A DNA stretch of 48,064 nucleotides from Pseudomonadota bacterium. GTDB taxonomy: Bacteria > Desulfobacterota > Desulfobulbia > Desulfobulbales > Desulfocapsaceae. Every line of letters starts with the position of its first letter. Position 1 is the first letter of the stretch. Where the stretch lies: assembly GCA_023412495.1 (NCBI GenBank), contig JAEYNP010000071.1, forward strand, positions 1 to 48,064. Reading direction: 5' to 3'. The notes under the pieces were generated by a model that did no database searches, was not told the origin of the DNA, and saw only the letters and a program-made list of their open reading frames with translations. The translations under genes and the position numbers were made by a program. Of the stretch, positions 18,566 through 46,909 are shown piece by piece.

Positions 18566-18705
18566 GTCGTTGTCGTAGTCGTTGTCATTGTCGTAATCGT
18601 AGTCGTAATCGCCATAAGGCCGACCTCTTCGTGGTTTGAGCGAAACATCCAATTGCTCTGATCAGTCCCATCATTTTTTCGATTACGATTACGACAACGA
18701 CAACG
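18566..18705. repeat. inverted hexamer satellite arms around a 68-bp spacer
   Basis: The left arm (18566-18611) is about 7.7 copies of GTCGTW/ATCGTA. The right arm (18680-18705) is CGATTA-CGATTA-CGACAA-CGACAA-CG. The right arm pairs with the left arm with few mismatches, so the RNA could form a long stem with the spacer as loop. No gene lies in the spacer. The layout resembles the heptamer-flanked IVP unit at 21568-22103. Confidence 0.75.
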
Positions 18706-18826: not shown

Positions 18827-18879
18827 ATCACGAGTAATTCCATTTCCAAATCAAGATGAGAACGCGAAGGCAAGCGATC

Positions 18880-19539
18880 ATGGTGCTCACCACCAAGCAG
18901 CAACAGTTTCTGGAGTATCTCACCGAGCGCATGGACGACGAAGGGCATATCCCCACTCTGCGGCAGGCCGCCCTCGACCTGGGGGTCAGTCATACCGCGG
19001 TAGCCCAGTTGATGACCCAGCTGGAGAAAAAAGGGGTGCTGGCGCGGGAGGGCCGCTACGGCCGGACCATCCGCCTGTACTCCGATTACGGCGAGCGGCG
19101 GCGGGGCGAGCGGCGGGACATCCGGCAGGGGAGGGAGCTGCCGCTCATCGGCCAGATCACCGCCGGGCTGCCGATGTATGCCCAACAGGAATGGGAAGGC
19201 ACGGTGCTGGTCGACCCCGACATCTTCCCCGGCGAGGGTCTCTTCTGCCTGCGCATCAAGGGCGAGTCGATGCGGGACGCTGGGATTCGCGACGGCGATG
19301 TGGTGGTCTGCGAACCGCGCCAGTACGCGGAAAACGGGGAGATCGTCGCTGTCCTCATCCGAGGCGAGGAGGCGACGGTGAAACGATTTTTTTTATACTC
19401 CGATCATATCGAGCTGCGGCCGGCGAACGAGGCCTTCTCGGTGATGTGCTACCCTTTCGGCGAGCTGCTGGTCCAGGGCAAGGTGATCGGGGTGATCCGG
19501 GGCAAGCATGCGGAATTCGATGGCAAGGCAATGGAGTGA
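18880..19539 (+). CDS. lexA: LexA SOS repressor
   Basis: The start is chosen at MVLTTKQQQ (18880); an in-frame ATG at 18856 has no ribosome binding site. The 219-aa protein has the N-terminal winged helix (about 1-65), a basic hinge, the self-cleavage Ala95-Gly96 bond in ITAGLP and the S24 serine-lysine dyad Ser130 (KGESM) and Lys168 (ATVKRF). RecA filaments would trigger cleavage and derepression. The recognition helix region (LGVSHTAVAQLMTQLEKKG) differs from the E. coli type, consistent with the unusual operators upstream. It heads an operon with DUF72, imuB and dnaE2 genes, overlapping the next gene. Confidence 0.92.
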   Translation: MVLTTKQQQFLEYLTERMDDEGHIPTLRQAALDLGVSHTAVAQLMTQLEKKGVLAREGRYGRTIRLYSDYGERRRGERRDIRQGRELPLIGQITAGLPMYAQQEWEGTVLVDPDIFPGEGLFCLRIKGESMRDAGIRDGDVVVCEPRQYAENGEIVAVLIRGEEATVKRFFLYSDHIELRPANEAFSVMCYPFGELLVQGKVIGVIRGKHAEFDGKAME

Positions 19540-20401
19540 CGGCCCCGGCCGGGTGGAGATCCGCTGTCCGGCGCGAGATGGCCGGCCGGGCCGGGTCTGC
19601 CCGGTCTATGTCGGGACCTGCGGCTACTCCTATACCGAGTGGGTGGACAGCGGCTTCTATCCTGAAGGGACCAAGAGCCGCGAGATGCTCGGTCTCTACG
19701 GCCGCTCCTTCTCCATGGTCGAGCTGAACTACACCTGGTACCAGATGGCCCGGGCGGAACCGCTCGCCCGGATGCTTGAGGGGGCGCCGCCGCACCTGCT
19801 CTTCGCCGCCAAGCTCACCCGGACCATGACCCACGAGCGGGACGACAACTGGCGGGAACAGCTCGCCCTCTACCGGCAGGGCATCGCCCCGCTGAAGGAG
19901 CGCCTGGTCGCGGTGCTCGTCCAGCTGCCGCCGGATTTCGACCGCAGCATCGCAAACCGCAGCTATCTCGCGGGCTTGCTCGACGGCCTGCAGGACCTGC
20001 CGGTAGCGGTGGAATTCCGCCACCACAGCTGGGCGGTGGACTCCGTGTTTGCGGAGCTTGCGCGGCGGAAGGTGACGCTGGTCACTGTCGATGCCCCGGC
20101 CCTGCCCGGATTTGCGGGTCTTTTTCCCGCCCTTGATGTGGTGACCAATTCCGCTCTTTTCTACGCCCGTTTCCATGGCCGCAACCGCGAGGGCTGGCGA
20201 TCGTCCAACATGCAGAAGAAGTTCAACTACGACTATTCCGGCGAGGAGCTGCGGGCCTGGTGCGCGAGCCGTCTGCCCACCCTGACCGGCCAGGCCGAAA
20301 TGGGGATACTCCTCTTCAATAACCATGTCCGGGCCCAGGCCCCGAGAAACGGCCTGCGCCTCACGGAGATCCTCGGAGAATTCGGTGAGGGGGAAGGGTG
20401 A
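19508..20401 (+). CDS. DUF72 (YecE-like) protein
   Basis: The 297-aa frame overlaps the end of lexA by 32 bases; the exact start among several Met codons is uncertain because none has a good ribosome binding site. The DUF72 barrel begins at VYVGTCGYSYTEWV (about residue 33) and includes VELNYTWYQM, VAVEFRHHSW and YARFHGRN, the conserved blocks of the family. DUF72 proteins form TIM-like barrels and have been linked to nuclease or repair roles, but no reaction is established to my knowledge. Its place between lexA and imuB points to a part in the DNA damage response. Confidence 0.85.
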   Translation: MRNSMARQWSDGPGRVEIRCPARDGRPGRVCPVYVGTCGYSYTEWVDSGFYPEGTKSREMLGLYGRSFSMVELNYTWYQMARAEPLARMLEGAPPHLLFAAKLTRTMTHERDDNWREQLALYRQGIAPLKERLVAVLVQLPPDFDRSIANRSYLAGLLDGLQDLPVAVEFRHHSWAVDSVFAELARRKVTLVTVDAPALPGFAGLFPALDVVTNSALFYARFHGRNREGWRSSNMQKKFNYDYSGEELRAWCASRLPTLTGQAEMGILLFNNHVRAQAPRNGLRLTEILGEFGEGEG

Positions 20402-21585
20402 TGGGCCAGGGCTTTCGCCTGCAGGAACGCTCGGTGCTCCATTTCAATGTCGCCGATTTCGCCGTGGCTGTCGAGCAGGTGAGCGATACTTCGCTCCGCG
20501 GGCGCCCTTTGCTCATTGCGCTCCAGGCCTCGCGGGCGGTGGTTTACGACATGAGCGAAGAGGCCTACCGGGAGGGGGTGGAGAAGGGCATGGCGCTCAG
20601 AGATGCCGTGCGGCTTTGCCGGGGCGCGGCGGTGCTGCCGCCCCGGCTGGGGCTCTACCAGAAGGCGATGGCGGCTTTTTTCAAGGAACTGCAGGGCTAT
20701 TCGCCGCTCATCGAATGCGGCCGGGCGGACGGCCATTTCTTCGTCGACGTCACCGGCACCCATCGCCTGCACGGACTTGCCCCCGACATCGGCTGGCGGG
20801 TGCGGCGGGAGACCCGCGCCGCCCTCGGCATCAACCCCATCTGGACGCTGGGCACCAGCAAGCTGATCGCCAAGGTCGCTTCCCGGCTGGTCAAGCCGGT
20901 GGGCGAATACATCGTTACGCCGGGGGATGAGGAGGCCTTCCTCGCCCCCCTGCCGGTGACGGTCCTGCCCGGCCTCACCCCCGGCGAGCTCGAGAAGCTT
21001 CGGGATTTCCGGCTGACCACGGTGGGTGCCCTGGCCGGGCTCAGCCGCCACCAGCTCATGGTGCCCTTCGGCGGCCGGTCCGGCTTTCTCCACGACCTCA
21101 GCCGCGGCATCGATGAAACCCAGGTCAGGCCGGGCGCGGCGGGGGAATCTCTCGATTACGAGGAGATCTTCGCCGAGGATACCAACGACCGGCGGGAGGT
21201 GGAGAGGGCGCTTTCGGCCTTGGTAGGCCAGGCGGGGCGCGCCCTGCGCGAGAGGAAGCAGGTGGCCAGGCGGGTAGGGATCTGGCTGCGCTACTCGGAC
21301 GGCGCCCAGGTGGTCCGCCAGGCCTCCTGCAAAAGCGGCGCCTCTGGCGACTTTCTCCTCCGCAAGCTGGCTATCGAGGCCCTGCAGCGGGCCTGGCACC
21401 GGCGGACGAGGATCCGCAGCTGCCGCCTGGTCTGCGACCGGCTGCAGCGCCAGTCGCCGCAGCTGCCGCTTTTCCCCGAACCGGGTCGGGATCCCGGCCG
21501 AACCAGGATGCTGTCTGCCATGGATACTTTGCGCCACAGGTTCGGCCACAATATCATAGGGATAGGACTGAGTACTGAGTGCTGA
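20401..21585 (+). CDS. imuB: ImuB-like inactive Y-family DNA polymerase
   Basis: The 394-aa protein aligns through the palm, fingers and little finger of Y-family polymerases (HFNVADFAVAVEQ, LGTSKLIAKVAS, VKPVGEYIVTPGDE). However, the first catalytic Asp is Asn16, and the DE pair of the third motif is Asp110-Gly111. Two of three metal ligands are lost, as in ImuB, which scaffolds the DnaE2 mutasome rather than polymerising. A beta-clamp-binding motif, QLPLF, sits at 354-358. The ATG overlaps the DUF72 stop by one base. The last residues (LSTEC) are encoded by a heptamer array, so the native C-terminus may have been altered by insertion of the next element. Confidence 0.85.
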   Translation: MGQGFRLQERSVLHFNVADFAVAVEQVSDTSLRGRPLLIALQASRAVVYDMSEEAYREGVEKGMALRDAVRLCRGAAVLPPRLGLYQKAMAAFFKELQGYSPLIECGRADGHFFVDVTGTHRLHGLAPDIGWRVRRETRAALGINPIWTLGTSKLIAKVASRLVKPVGEYIVTPGDEEAFLAPLPVTVLPGLTPGELEKLRDFRLTTVGALAGLSRHQLMVPFGGRSGFLHDLSRGIDETQVRPGAAGESLDYEEIFAEDTNDRREVERALSALVGQAGRALRERKQVARRVGIWLRYSDGAQVVRQASCKSGASGDFLLRKLAIEALQRAWHRRTRIRSCRLVCDRLQRQSPQLPLFPEPGRDPGRTRMLSAMDTLRHRFGHNIIGIGLSTEC

Positions 21586-21600
21586 GTGCTGAGTGCTGAG
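21568..21600 (+). repeat. CTGAGTG heptamer array, left arm
   Basis: CTGAGTA-CTGAGTG-CTGAGTG-CTGAGTG-CTGAG, 4.7 units. It contains the imuB stop. Its full 33 bases are exactly complementary to 22052-22084. Confidence 0.9.
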
Positions 21601-21614
21601 AAAAGGAAGCCGGC

Positions 21615-22016
21615 ATGCGTAAGGTTGAAAAGTTTGAGAATCTCATAGCTTGGCAGAAGGCGCGAGAGCTGACGAAGCAAATTTACAACATTACTCGGCA
21701 GGGCGGTTTTGCCCAAGATTTTGGGCTGAAAGACCAGATACAACGGGCATCCGTTTCCGTCATGTCGAATATCGCGGAGGGATTCGAACGTGGCAGTCTG
21801 GCAGAATTTCATCAATTTCTTTCAACAGCCAAAGCTTCGTGTGCGGAGGTCCGATCACAACTTTATGTCGCTTTGGATGCAGGATATGTCTCGCAACCTG
21901 CATTTGATCAGCTTCGGTCTTTGGCAGAGGAGGTAGGCAAAGTAATCGGAGGATTGCGTGTTTCAGTGCAAAAGCGTCGCGACGAAGCACGCATTAAATT
22001 GCCTCAACCCTCATAA
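21615..22016 (+). CDS. four-helix-bundle protein (S23/IVP family)
   Basis: The 133-aa protein matches the four-helix-bundle family first found as ORFs in 23S rRNA intervening sequences: [63 protein letters not shown]. Relatives include the Avd accessory proteins of diversity-generating retroelements, which are basic nucleic-acid-binding pentamers. The role of stand-alone members is unknown. AAGGAAG precedes the ATG. The gene lies between imuB and dnaE2, enclosed by inverted heptamer arrays that could form a long stem with the gene in its loop. This suggests a later insertion into the SOS operon rather than an original member. Confidence 0.9.
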
Positions 22017-22103
22017 CTCAGCTCTCATAACTCAGCCCTCAGTACTCAACACTCAGCACTCAGCACTCAGCACTCAGTACTCAGCACTCAGCACTCAGCA
22101 CTC
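22014..22103 (+). repeat. ACTCAGC heptamer array, right arm
   Basis: About 12.7 units of CACTCAG and variants fill the space between the IVP stop and the dnaE2 start. Bases 22052-22084 are the exact reverse complement of the left arm. The array ends 11 bases before the dnaE2 ATG and leaves no ribosome binding site for it. Confidence 0.9.
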
Positions 22104-22114
22104 TTTTATTGTCG

Positions 22115-25100
22115 ATGTTTCCCTTACGCCTAAGATCCTACTATTCCCTGCTGCAAGGCACCGCATCCCCGGCCGCGCTGTGCCGCCGGGCGAAAGAACT
22201 GGGGTACCCCGGTCTTGCATTGACCGACCGGGACAATCTCTACGGGCTGTGGGATTTCCTGAAAGCCTGCCGACGGGAAGGCCTGCGGCCGGTGGTGGGG
22301 GCAGAAGTCTCGGAGCCGGGTTCGGACCGGGTGGTGACCTGCCTGGTGCGAGGTCAGGGCGGCTACGCCAATCTCTGCAGACTACTGACCCGGCGGCATA
22401 TGGAAGAGGGGACGTTCAGCCTTTCCGGGGACCTGTCGCCGTTTGCCGACGGCCTGCTGCTGCTCTGCCGCGATATCCCGCTGCTCGAGGAATACCGGCG
22501 GCTGGGTCTGACCGTTGCGGCCGATCTCGGCGCCGTACCCGACGCTGAAGCCCGGCGTCTGCGGGCCTTCGCCGGGGAGCATGACCTGCCGGTTGTGGTT
22601 ACGCCCGACAGCGATCTCTCGGAGGAGAGCGAGGCTGACCGGCGCCTCCACGCCCTCCTCCAGGCGATCCGCAAAGCCGAGACCATCAGCGCGGCCATGC
22701 GTGACGGAGCGGCGGGGAAGCATGAGGTTCATGCCTTCCTCGGACCTGAGGCCTACCGGCAGCGCTTCGCCATCTGGCCGGAGGCGGTGGCGGAGACGCT
22801 GCGTCTCGCCGAAAGCTGCGCCTTCAGCGGGCCAGAATTCGGCATTGTCATGCCCCCCTGGCGGGCCGGGGAAGGGCGCGATGCGGCGGCCGTGCTGCGG
22901 GAGAAGGCCTATCTCGGAGCGCAGGCGCGATACGGCGAGGACCTGGGCGAGCCGGTGGTCGAGCGGCTCGAACACGAGCTGAAGATCATCGAGCAGATGG
23001 GCTTTTCCTCCTATTTTCTCGTGGTGCGGGACATCGTCCACCGCCGGGGGCCGGACGGCCGCCGGAAAAAGCGGCGGATCTGCGGGCGCGGCTCGGGGGC
23101 GGCGTCGCTCGTCGCCTACTGCCTCGACATCACCAATGTCTGCCCAATCAAGTACAACCTCTACTTCGAGCGTTTCCTCAACCCCGGCCGGACCGACCCC
23201 CCGGACATCGACATCGATTTCGCCTGGGACGAGCGGGACGAGGTGCTGGCCGAGGTGCTGGCGGACTTCCCCGGTCATTCCGCCATGGTCTGCAACCACG
23301 TCTTTTTCCAGCCCCGCATGGCCATTCGGGAGACTGCCAAGGCCTTCGGCCTGCCCGGCTACGAAATTTCCCGGCTGACCAAGCGGATCCCCTGGCTGCA
23401 CGCCGGCGACGATCTGGCCGAGAGCCTCTCCGAGCTGCCGACCCTGAGGGACCAGGACCTGAGCCCGCCCTGGCCGGAGATCCTCGCGCTCGCCGGCCGG
23501 CTGATCGGCCTGCCGCGCCATCTCTCGGTCCATCCGGGCGGGGTGATCATTACCCCAAAGCCCATCCACCAATACGTTCCCGTCGAGCGGGCCGCCAAGG
23601 GGGTGCCGATCATCCAGTGGGAGAAGGACGGGGCCGAGGAGGCGGGGCTGGTGAAGATCGACCTCCTCGGCAACCGGAGCCTCGGGGTGATCCGCGACTG
23701 CGTCGCCGCCGTTCGCGCCGCCGGCAAGCGTTTCGACGAGAGCCGCTGGCAGCCGGAGGACGACCCGGCCACCAGGATGCTCCTTGCCGAAGGGGGCGCC
23801 ATGGGCTGTTTCTACATCGAGAGCCCGGCCATGCGGCTTCTCGAAAAAAAGGCCGGGACCGGCGATTTTGAGCAGCTGGTCATCCAGTCGTCGATCATCC
23901 GCCCGGCGGCCAACGAGTTCGTCCGGGAGTACGTGCGGCGGTTGCACGGCGGGGCCTGGCAGCCCCTCTGTCCCGAAGTGGGCGACGTTCTCGACGAGAC
24001 CTTCGGGATCATGGTCTATCAGGAGGATGTCTCGAAGGTCGCCGTGGCGCTCGCCGGCTTCAGCGCCGCCGACGCCGATGGCCTGCGCAAGATCATGTCC
24101 AAGAAGGACAAGATGCAGCGTCTGGAAAACTACCGCGCCATGTTCTTCTCCGGCTGCGCCGAGCGAGGGGTGTCCGCCGAGGCGGCGGCAGAGGCCTGGC
24201 GGATGATGCTCAGCTTCGACGGCTACTCCTTCTGCAAGCCCCACTCCGCCTCCTACGCCCGGGTCTCCTTCCAGGCCGCCTACCTGAAACGGCATTATCC
24301 GGCCCCCTTCATGGCCGCGGTGATCTCCAACCAGGGCGGCTACTATTCGACCTTCGCCTACGTCTCCGAGGCCAAACGGCTGGGCCTGAAAGTGCTGCCG
24401 CCGGATGTCCGCGCAAGCGGCATCCACTGGACCGGAGCGGGCAGTCAGATCCGGGTCGGCCTTATGGCGGTGCAGGGTCTGTCGGCGGAATTTCTCGCCC
24501 GGTTGTTCGCGGCCAGGGAAGAACGAAAATTTGCCGATCTCGGCGACTTCTTCCACCGCACCCGGCCCGCCGACAACGAGGCCTGCGCCCTCATCCATGC
24601 CGGTGCCCTGGACGGCTTCGAACCCGCTCAGGGCAACCGGACGGTGCTCCTCTGGCAGTGGGCGAGTTTCCAGCGGGCCCTCCAGGACAAACGGTGCCTG
24701 ACCCTTTTCGGGGTGAAACTGCCGCCCGCGCCGCCCCTGCCGCCCCCCGACGCCAGGAGCCGAGCCCGCCGGGAATTCGCCATCCTGGGATTCCTCTGCG
24801 AGGGCCACCCGTTGCGGTTTCTTCGATTGCCGGCGAAGGGTCGGGTGGAGATTGCGGACTTGCCCCGCTGTGTCGGCCGGCAGGTGAGCCTCGCCGCCTG
24901 GCTGTTGACCGGCAAGCTGGTCTCCACCAAGACTGGCGAGGCCATGGAGTTCCTTACCTTCGAGGATGAAAGCGGCCAGGTCGAAACCACCTTCTTTCCG
25001 GAGGTCTACCGCCGGTACGCCCACCTTCTGCGGAGCGGCCGGGGGTATCTCCTGACTGGCCTCGTCGAGGAGGATTTCGGGGCGATAACGCTCACCGTCG

Positions 25101-25126
25101 ACCGCTTGCAGCCGCTGGCGGCGTAG
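22115..25126 (+). CDS. dnaE2: error-prone DNA polymerase III alpha subunit (DnaE2/ImuC)
   Basis: The 1003-aa protein is a C-family polymerase of the short DnaE2 type. An N-terminal PHP domain is followed by the palm with FLNPGRTDPP and the catalytic DIDID (364-368), a helix-hairpin-helix and an OB fold at the C-terminus (MEFLTFEDESGQVETTFF). The PHP metal site is degenerate: RSYYSLL where HxH is expected and TDRDN where TDHDN is expected. It would do mutagenic translesion synthesis with ImuB and the clamp after SOS induction. The ATG at 22115 (or TTG at 22109) has no ribosome binding site because a heptamer array abuts it. Translation may therefore depend on RNA structure or readthrough. Confidence 0.92.
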   Translation: MFPLRLRSYYSLLQGTASPAALCRRAKELGYPGLALTDRDNLYGLWDFLKACRREGLRPVVGAEVSEPGSDRVVTCLVRGQGGYANLCRLLTRRHMEEGTFSLSGDLSPFADGLLLLCRDIPLLEEYRRLGLTVAADLGAVPDAEARRLRAFAGEHDLPVVVTPDSDLSEESEADRRLHALLQAIRKAETISAAMRDGAAGKHEVHAFLGPEAYRQRFAIWPEAVAETLRLAESCAFSGPEFGIVMPPWRAGEGRDAAAVLREKAYLGAQARYGEDLGEPVVERLEHELKIIEQMGFSSYFLVVRDIVHRRGPDGRRKKRRICGRGSGAASLVAYCLDITNVCPIKYNLYFERFLNPGRTDPPDIDIDFAWDERDEVLAEVLADFPGHSAMVCNHVFFQPRMAIRETAKAFGLPGYEISRLTKRIPWLHAGDDLAESLSELPTLRDQDLSPPWPEILALAGRLIGLPRHLSVHPGGVIITPKPIHQYVPVERAAKGVPIIQWEKDGAEEAGLVKIDLLGNRSLGVIRDCVAAVRAAGKRFDESRWQPEDDPATRMLLAEGGAMGCFYIESPAMRLLEKKAGTGDFEQLVIQSSIIRPAANEFVREYVRRLHGGAWQPLCPEVGDVLDETFGIMVYQEDVSKVAVALAGFSAADADGLRKIMSKKDKMQRLENYRAMFFSGCAERGVSAEAAAEAWRMMLSFDGYSFCKPHSASYARVSFQAAYLKRHYPAPFMAAVISNQGGYYSTFAYVSEAKRLGLKVLPPDVRASGIHWTGAGSQIRVGLMAVQGLSAEFLARLFAAREERKFADLGDFFHRTRPADNEACALIHAGALDGFEPAQGNRTVLLWQWASFQRALQDKRCLTLFGVKLPPAPPLPPPDARSRARREFAILGFLCEGHPLRFLRLPAKGRVEIADLPRCVGRQVSLAAWLLTGKLVSTKTGEAMEFLTFEDESGQVETTFFPEVYRRYAHLLRSGRGYLLTGLVEEDFGAITLTVDRLQPLAA

Positions 25127-25128
25127 AT

Positions 25129-25163
25129 CAGAAGCCAGAAGACAGAGGACAGAGGACAGACAG
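25129..25163 (+). repeat. CAGARGA heptamer array
   Basis: CAGAAGC-CAGAAGA-CAGAGGA-CAGAGGA-CAGACAG, five 7-bp units starting right after the dnaE2 stop. The same family as the array fused to the 3' end of glgX. Confidence 0.75.
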
Positions 25164-27622: not shown

Positions 27623-27634
27623 AGACAAAATAAG

Positions 27635-27768
27635 TACTGAGTGCTGAGTACTGAGTACTGAGTAAAAACAAGATGTTATCACTCAGCGCTCTCAGGGACC
27701 TCGGGTCTCCCGTTTTATTTGACTCTGGTGCGCTTGCGCATGATAACTCAGCACTCAGCACTCAGTAC
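27635..27768. repeat. inverted heptamer arms around a 78-bp spacer
   Basis: Left arm 27637-27664 is CTGAGTG plus three CTGAGTA units. Right arm 27743-27768 is the inverted form (ACTCAGC units) and ends CAGTACTT, mirroring AAGTACTG at the left edge. Over 25 bases the arms pair with about two mismatches. It uses the same unit as the arrays around the IVP gene, but the spacer holds no gene. Confidence 0.85.
27695..27720 (+). terminator. possible intrinsic terminator in the array spacer
   Basis: GGGACC...GGTCTCCC with a two-base bulge, followed by GTTTTATTT, 70 bases after the synthetase stop. Confidence 0.45.
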
Positions 27769-27783
27769 TTAAACATAAGAGAT

Positions 27784-46209: not shown

Positions 46210-46909
46210 GTACGCCCGGCACGGGCGTGATCTTATGGGGTGCAAGTCCCCTGTTTGTAAACCCCTGTTACTGTCGTGATGACAGGAACATAAATACTAG
46301 CCGAAAGCAAGGGCGATCCCGTGAGGCCTCGTCCGGAGGAAGCTGGAGTGCAAACCTATGAGCCGACGGACAGAAATGGCATACAAGGCCGAGTCTCCGG
46401 GTAAGTCAGCACGACATGACAAAGCCTTGGGTTGAGGAGATACGGTAAATGCCACTGTTGCATAGTGAAAGATTACGTTCTTATCCGGGAGGTCTGTTCA
46501 ACGAGCGGTCATTGTATCGGCAGCGCATTGTGTGGCAACATGCAGGGAGTTTGGGGCAGGAGCCAGCAGAGGCCATATTAGGCGAAGGAAGTCACCATGC
46601 AGGGGCAATGGGGACTGGAAACGAGCCCGGCGAATAGAAAAGCCGGGAGGTTCACCCCGCTGAAGGGCCGAACTCATAGAGGAAAGTGAGATTTTATAAG
46701 CTCTGCCGCGCGTCTCGCCGGACCGGGGGAGCGAATCGGCAGGTGCGATGCAAGCACTATCACACTTTCAGGTATTATTTGCAGTTGCCGCCTTCTTGCT
46801 GTCAAAGAGTTGCGGATATACTTCATCCGATTACGTCCGATGTTCTTTGGGAACCGCCTGGTGCGGACCCGCATGCCAGGTGGTGTGGGGGATCCCCCGG
46901 CTACCCGAT
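46210..46909 (+). ncRNA. group IIC intron without ORF, inserted in attC
   Basis: The 5' end reads GTACGCCCGGCACGGGCGTG, followed by TGCAAGTCCC, as in domain I of class C introns such as the Oceanobacillus iheyensis intron. TTCTTATCCGGGAGGTCTG and CCAGCAGAGGCCAT are further matching blocks. Domain V is at about 46850-46889: GAACCGCCTGG...CCAGGTGGTGTG, with the CGC triad of class C. A short domain VI ends in CTACCCGAT. No reverse transcriptase frame is present in the 700 nt; domain IV is only about 200 nt. Such an intron needs a maturase in trans to splice or move. The exact first base is uncertain by two positions. Confidence 0.87.

Follow-up and report, generated by a model that had tools for sequence, protein, structure and literature searches.

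MITEs and REP/REPIN sequences are short, scattered through intergenic DNA, and bounded by inverted ends. The intervening sequence (IVS) in the 23S rRNA of Coxiella bears an IVP gene and is excised by RNase III, and the accessible portion of the report describes its ORF as undergoing reductive evolution (PMC4990558). In the available parts of two further papers, the PF05635 family is called functionally uncharacterised (PMC11270868), and homology between it and Avd of diversity-generating retroelements is suggested (PMC10053308). The heptamers GGGAATC and GGGGA(C/T)T of Xanthomonas and Nostoc occur in arrays, some of which form close convergent (inverted) pairs, 70 in Xcc and 75 in Xac; the accessible part of that paper treats them as G-quadruplex repeats, generally without association with mobile elements, and names no enclosed gene family (PMC4692102). 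In Beggiatoaceae, TAACTGA occurs as short intergenic heptamers, often just upstream of start codons, and as direct repeats with one inverted case in the portion of the paper available, in whose text "S23" and "IVP" have 0 occurrences (PMC4679880).

The element described here is located in a 48,064-nucleotide stretch of DNA that was analysed as a whole (the window). A row of genes on the + strand contains lexA (18856-19539), a DUF72 gene assigned with Pfam (19508-20401), a Y-family polymerase gene with the Pfam domains IMS and IMS_C (imuB, 20398-21585), the gene for a four-helix-bundle protein of 133 aa (the IVP gene, 21615-22016), and a DNA polymerase III alpha-type gene (dnaE2, ORF 22109-25126). 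The names imuB and dnaE2 rest on the gene layout; no NCBIfam model named imuB or dnaE2 reached its cut-off on the two polymerase genes. The best DnaE2 match to the dnaE2 product is at 62%, and no DnaE2 relative was confirmed in viral contigs. Two heptamer arrays flank the IVP gene on the same strand, the left one (21568-21600) with 4.7 copies of CTGAGTG units and 96% matches, and the right one (22016-22103) with 12.6 copies of ACTCAGC units and 82% matches. The left array and positions 22052-22084 of the right array are exact reverse complements over 33 bp. The first-pass annotation had described an IVP gene enclosed by exact 33-bp inverted heptamer arms with co-directional imuB and dnaE2 on either side, and this layout was confirmed.

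The IVP protein belongs to PF05635 (23S_rRNA_IVP): the match has an E-value of 8.7e-37 and 126 bits against a curated cut-off of 33.8, and positions 1-105 of the 106 in the profile are covered. It also matches the NCBIfam four helix bundle model TIGR02436 with 114.7 bits (cut-off 24). Identity to relatives is 67-84% among the best 120 listed. Its PDB relatives are 2GSC and 2RLD, of which 2GSC is XCC0516 of Xanthomonas, the genus with the GGGAATC arrays. Matches to Avd models were below threshold (bAvd, 27.5 against 40 bits; NF033474, 24.9 against 80). Like the 23S rRNA IVS, the window element has an IVP-family gene between inverted arms able to form a stem; unlike it, the element lies between two polymerase genes and not in a 23S rRNA gene, its arms are tandem arrays, and its gene appears to be under purifying selection (see below), whereas the accessible part of PMC4990558 describes reduction of the Coxiella ORF. 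It shares inverted ends with MITEs and REP/REPIN sequences, but its own ends are tandem arrays with a lineage-specific unit, without target duplication. Heptamer arrays, some of them in inverted pairs, are what it has in common with the Xanthomonas and Nostoc repeats as presented in the available part of PMC4692102; the Beggiatoaceae repeats are likewise heptamers, but direct ones apart from a single inverted case.

The first-pass annotation took the left arm to be the source of the imuB stop and the right arm to have removed the dnaE2 ribosome binding site, and the first of these points was borne out. The imuB stop codon TGA (21583-21585) lies inside the left array; the ImuB region alignable to relatives stops at residue 390 (nt 21567), and the five extra codons beyond it give an array-derived tail, LSTEC. 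The probable start of dnaE2 is ATG 22115, with a TTG in frame upstream at 22109, and no Shine-Dalgarno (SD)-like sequence was seen by eye before ATG 22115. An SD-like AAGGAAG is present upstream of the IVP gene (by eye). An in-frame join of dnaE2 with an ATG at the end of the IVP gene is absent from the window.

To survey other IVP genes, genome contigs were scanned with an IVP alignment, and the best 80 of at least 587 loci, from many phyla as judged by record titles, were kept. Within 200 bp on each side of the gene, inverted matches with a score of at least 12 were counted as arms. After a duplicate (L006) and a locus with a short flank (L008) were dropped from the 81 rows (80 loci plus the window), inverted arms were present in 65 of the 79 remaining rows (78 IVP loci plus the window). 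The inverted match exceeded the direct match in 71/79 rows. Because several loci occupy a common site, the rows were also counted per site: arms were present in 52/59 if any member counts and in 46/59 if every member must have them. The arms match one another better within a locus (mean 19.0) than across loci (mean 11.5; 0/10000 permutations), with a locus's own partner arm being the best match of all in only 21/79 rows and among the top four in 37/79. A second sample of 27 new and more divergent loci (L241-L267), the top Pfam hits in another class of genomes, had inverted arms in 21/27, leaving 6/27 top hits without arms; its units include AGGCACAA, AGCTGTT, and AGGGATC. Seven further scored loci, from six genomes chosen for their many arrays (one locus repeats L002), were kept apart from the 21/27; five had arms and two were without a match. 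A layout particular to the SOS operon was not supported, as IVP elements sit between inverted arms at many other gene junctions. SOS-specific regulation was set aside as the main reading because the elements adjoin other genes too.

Matches to PF05635 were found in 195 of the 291 genomes of one class that were searched, 184 of them above the cut-off. The dN/dS values of the IVP gene range from 0.03 to 0.20 in 12 pairs (dS is saturated in some), which indicates that the gene is under purifying selection.

The same flank analysis was extended to other gene families. GxxExxY genes (PDDEXK_3, PF13366) had inverted flanks at 26 of 30 top loci (L268-L297; 147 genomes), most of them consisting of repeated short units, for example CACGAAGAA; the inverted repeat at L275 is without clear units. 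The layout resembles that of the IVP element, but the protein is unrelated, the periods are mostly 8-10 nt, and the units are few. With the same script, the 30 top PIN (PF01850) loci gave inverted flanks in 0/30. A Y1 transposase was considered as the owner of the arrays and found no support in the 29 scored top Y1_Tnp loci: tandem arrays were present at 0/29, and 9/29 had other inverted flanks with low period scores. A literature search, mostly without subscription journals, returned no link of IVP or GxxExxY genes to inverted arrays.

Repeat units vary in step with the IVP lineage. Between non-orthologous sites, IVP identity correlates with the similarity of the arm units (Spearman 0.58, 91 loci, 0/2000 permutations), a value that was helped by the difference between the two samples; in the first sample alone, the coefficient is 0.31 (66 loci, 0/2000 permutations). 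Orthologous pairs were taken out by hand for this comparison, from a list of sites common to related genomes. Pairs with similar arms make up 0.6% at 45-55% IVP identity, 25.6% at 55-65%, and 65% above 75%. This relationship suggests that the gene and its arrays travel together. Genomes with the TGAG pattern also had an IVP match more often (68/80) than genomes without it (127/211; p 4.3e-5, 291 genomes). A reversed control pattern was matched in some genomes as well (e.g., G098 and G255), so not every array match in the genome scan is of this type.

Occupied and empty sites were compared at two junctions. The imuB-dnaE2 survey covered 31 DnaE2 loci, namely, the 30 best matches among 121 matching genomes plus L081. 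Both genes were found in 27 loci, with a gap of 6-47 nt in 15/27 and a longer one in 12/27; in the window, the gap is 548 in the same measure (by subtraction). This comparison with related operons lacking the insert, proposed in the first-pass annotation, indicates that the window dnaE2 no longer lies as near to imuB as in 15/27 relatives. Ten of the long gaps were inspected, and several carry other inverted repeats (by eye). An IVP gene between imuB and dnaE2 without inverted arrays, which the first-pass annotation named as a refuting case, was absent in the 31 loci, in a search with 18 sequences of one lineage that could miss a distant IVP; the sole further IVP detected in these loci, a decayed copy at the L106 junction, is accompanied by inverted arrays (by eye). 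The L097 and L104 junctions each carry a short insert; by eye, both inserts have ACTTTAG-type repeats and resemble each other in the interior.

The rfbB-rfbA survey covered 30 loci, the best matches among 101 of the 120 genomes from the family to which L057, a Sideroxydans record, belongs and which we take to be Gallionellaceae. The names RfbB and RfbA pass NCBIfam cut-offs in L057. Six loci carry an IVP element, 17 are empty, and 7 have other inserts or no rfbA nearby. The empty junctions measure 17 nt in 16 cases and 26 nt in one, and the occupied gaps measure 444-615 bp. In the rfbB tree, the occupied sites are scattered; the IVP label requires 6 changes, and at least 5 gains or losses are forced. 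Homologous recombination of polysaccharide genes could also explain this pattern. Further IVP sites are common to related genomes. No target-site duplication was detected (53 rows, mean 0.25 versus 0.37 in permutations), although the fuzzy array ends could hide short ones, and neither a transposase or recombinase for the element nor any movement was found. The element ends vary with the IVP lineage, and many begin with AG and end with CT (by eye). We infer mobility from these site patterns.

By a longest-ORF rule, which miscalled imuB itself, the IVP gene and the ORF upstream of it point the same way in 65/75 loci; both neighbours are co-directional in 48/73 and both opposed in 3/73. In the window, the left array has stop codons in all three frames (2/1/2 per frame over 21564-21600), and the right array has none (0/0/0 over 22038-22103). 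In the 58 loci with both arrays, with at most 24 nt of each array counted, left arrays have stops in three frames in 34, in two frames in 15, and in one or none in 9; right arrays are stop-free in 48 and contain a stop in 10. This pattern follows from the TGAG unit and the polarity that the loci share, and through common ancestry the loci are not independent of one another.

Of 51 eligible loci, 31 have an ATG in the interval from the IVP stop to the right array, and in 20 of these 31 loci, the first such ATG is in frame and open into the downstream gene. Counted by site, the in-frame fit is 11/20 (p 0.04), or 10/20 (p 0.09) if every member must fit, an excess that we regard as modest. Among ATGA overlaps, the count is 12/15 loci. 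Individual cases are stronger. In L005, L007, L009, L016, L022, L023, L043, and L055, the ATG at the IVP stop is followed by no other ATG, GTG, or TTG in its frame over 100 nt or more. The Gmd model TIGR01472, which passes its cut-off in L023, aligns there from its position 1 right after the array. The six elements at rfbB-rfbA likewise keep the frame (five by script and L215 by eye), and rfbA of L232 is without an ATG of its own. At several sites, the right array is read as the N-terminus of the downstream protein, from an ATG that overlaps or lies near the IVP stop.

We interpret the window element as a mobile, largely frame-tolerant cassette, consisting of the IVP gene and two inverted heptamer arrays as one unit, at the junction of imuB and dnaE2. 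We assign this reading a probability of about 0.62 and consider it likelier than an RNA switch specific to the SOS operon. The IVP gene and both arrays would have been inserted together where the imuB stop and the dnaE2 start meet. The left array, with stops in all three frames, ends imuB after five extra codons, and the stop-free right array would let a downstream gene be read through as an N-terminal linker. As 7 is not divisible by 3, the gain or loss of one unit would shift the downstream frame, and slippage could therefore tune the join after insertion. The arrays may also be the ends recognised in movement, as a DNA or RNA hairpin to which the IVP protein perhaps binds, while an enzyme acting in trans cuts and joins. 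For the window operon, the insertion would set imuB and dnaE2 apart, with translation of dnaE2 probably reduced or uncoupled.

The first-pass annotation had favoured an IVS-like RNA element, in which the stem with the IVP gene in its loop is cut by RNase III and the imuB and dnaE2 messages are split. We regard this as unlikely, although it is compatible with the cassette reading. The fold that it proposed for the transcript is present in the predicted RNA, where the arm stem closes around the IVP gene (-217.9 versus -175.3 +/- 6.7 kcal/mol, z -6.35); a low folding energy is, however, expected of any long inverted repeat. The better match of arms within than across loci agrees with a stem, as does the RNase III excision of the IVP-bearing Coxiella IVS, as given in the accessible part of PMC4990558. 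Selection on a sense-RNA stem should leave more G.U than A.C mismatches between the arms, and the reverse was observed on the sense strand (122 A.C versus 35 G.U in 69 rows; 30 rows versus 11), so such selection was rejected as a candidate; looser constraint on the left arm may explain the imbalance. Together with the reading of the right arm as downstream coding frame at several sites, the mismatches argue against RNase III excision as the point of the element. That same position of the array within the downstream frame would suit a phase-variable or regulatory linker, an element kept because slippage in the right array toggles the frame, and the array length does differ between orthologous sites (by eye). 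The downstream genes, however, include the biosynthetic rfbA and gmd, where a benefit of switching is not obvious, and we consider this explanation very unlikely.

The arrays might instead spread independently by means of some other enzyme, with IVP genes as passengers. Arrays can far outnumber IVP genes (163 + 164 pattern hits and 2 IVP matches in genome G002; 42 + 64 pattern hits and no IVP match in G171), and short array hairpins without an IVP gene exist, two of them near-identical. We find this improbable nonetheless, given that unit and IVP lineage vary together, that the 30 PIN genes of the same class are without such arms, and that the IVP gene is apparently under purifying selection. 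The near-identical hairpins, L197 and L198, are both in genome G123 and have an extra end in common. The possibility that a simple-sequence expansion flanks an ordinary gene on both sides by chance is practically negligible, even though many bacterial genomes contain an excess of heptameric repeats according to the available part of PMC4692102. The 33-bp inversion of the arms is the longest exact inverted repeat of the window, compared with 14-20 bp in 20 dinucleotide shuffles, and the pattern (TGAGNNN)x3+TGAG with at most 2 mismatches has 19 overlapping matches in the window versus 0.00 expected. Arms were obtained in 0/79 rows when one flank was shuffled letter by letter and at 0/204 random positions in the first-sample loci, and the layout recurs across phyla. 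Chance repeats were rejected on the exact inversion, the pattern excess, and these controls.

If the cassette reading is correct, the element could be inserted into an operon while leaving both adjoining genes intact. PF05635 would gain a concrete role, as the protein carried by a mobile cassette through which the ends of neighbouring proteins are rewritten. The basis would be a defined DNA unit whose ends match, the existence of empty sites, and arrays that are translated in part. The cassette would also explain some bacterial heptamer arrays and odd N-termini such as MTQHSALSTQHS. More tentatively, and at somewhat less than even odds, there may be a large unrecognised class of mobile elements, which could be called inverted-array cassettes, with either an IVP gene (7-8-nt units) or a gene for a GxxExxY protein of PD-(D/E)XK nuclease fold (8-10-nt units). 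In this class, the arrays would be protein-recognised, lineage-specific ends that also provide an upstream stop and a stop-free downstream linker, which would make entry into operon junctions almost silent, and gene-less hairpins would be non-autonomous copies.

The window contains other arrays. An inverted pair with the same heptamers on the + strand (27633-27664 and 27746-27769) has no IVP gene and separates an AMP-binding gene from a molybdopterin oxidoreductase gene; the ORF of the latter, from ATG 27673, reads in frame through the right array. Ahead of lexA, after the stop of the preceding ORF, an array of 6-nt units (GTCGTA type) and an inverted partner, seen by eye, occupy 18566-18705. 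A one-sided 7-nt array (CAGAAGA/AGAGGAC type; 25129-25160) follows immediately after the dnaE2 stop. At gathering scores, Rfam gives a single match within the window, to the group II intron D1-D4 model (RF02001, 118.6 bits), at 46315-46479.
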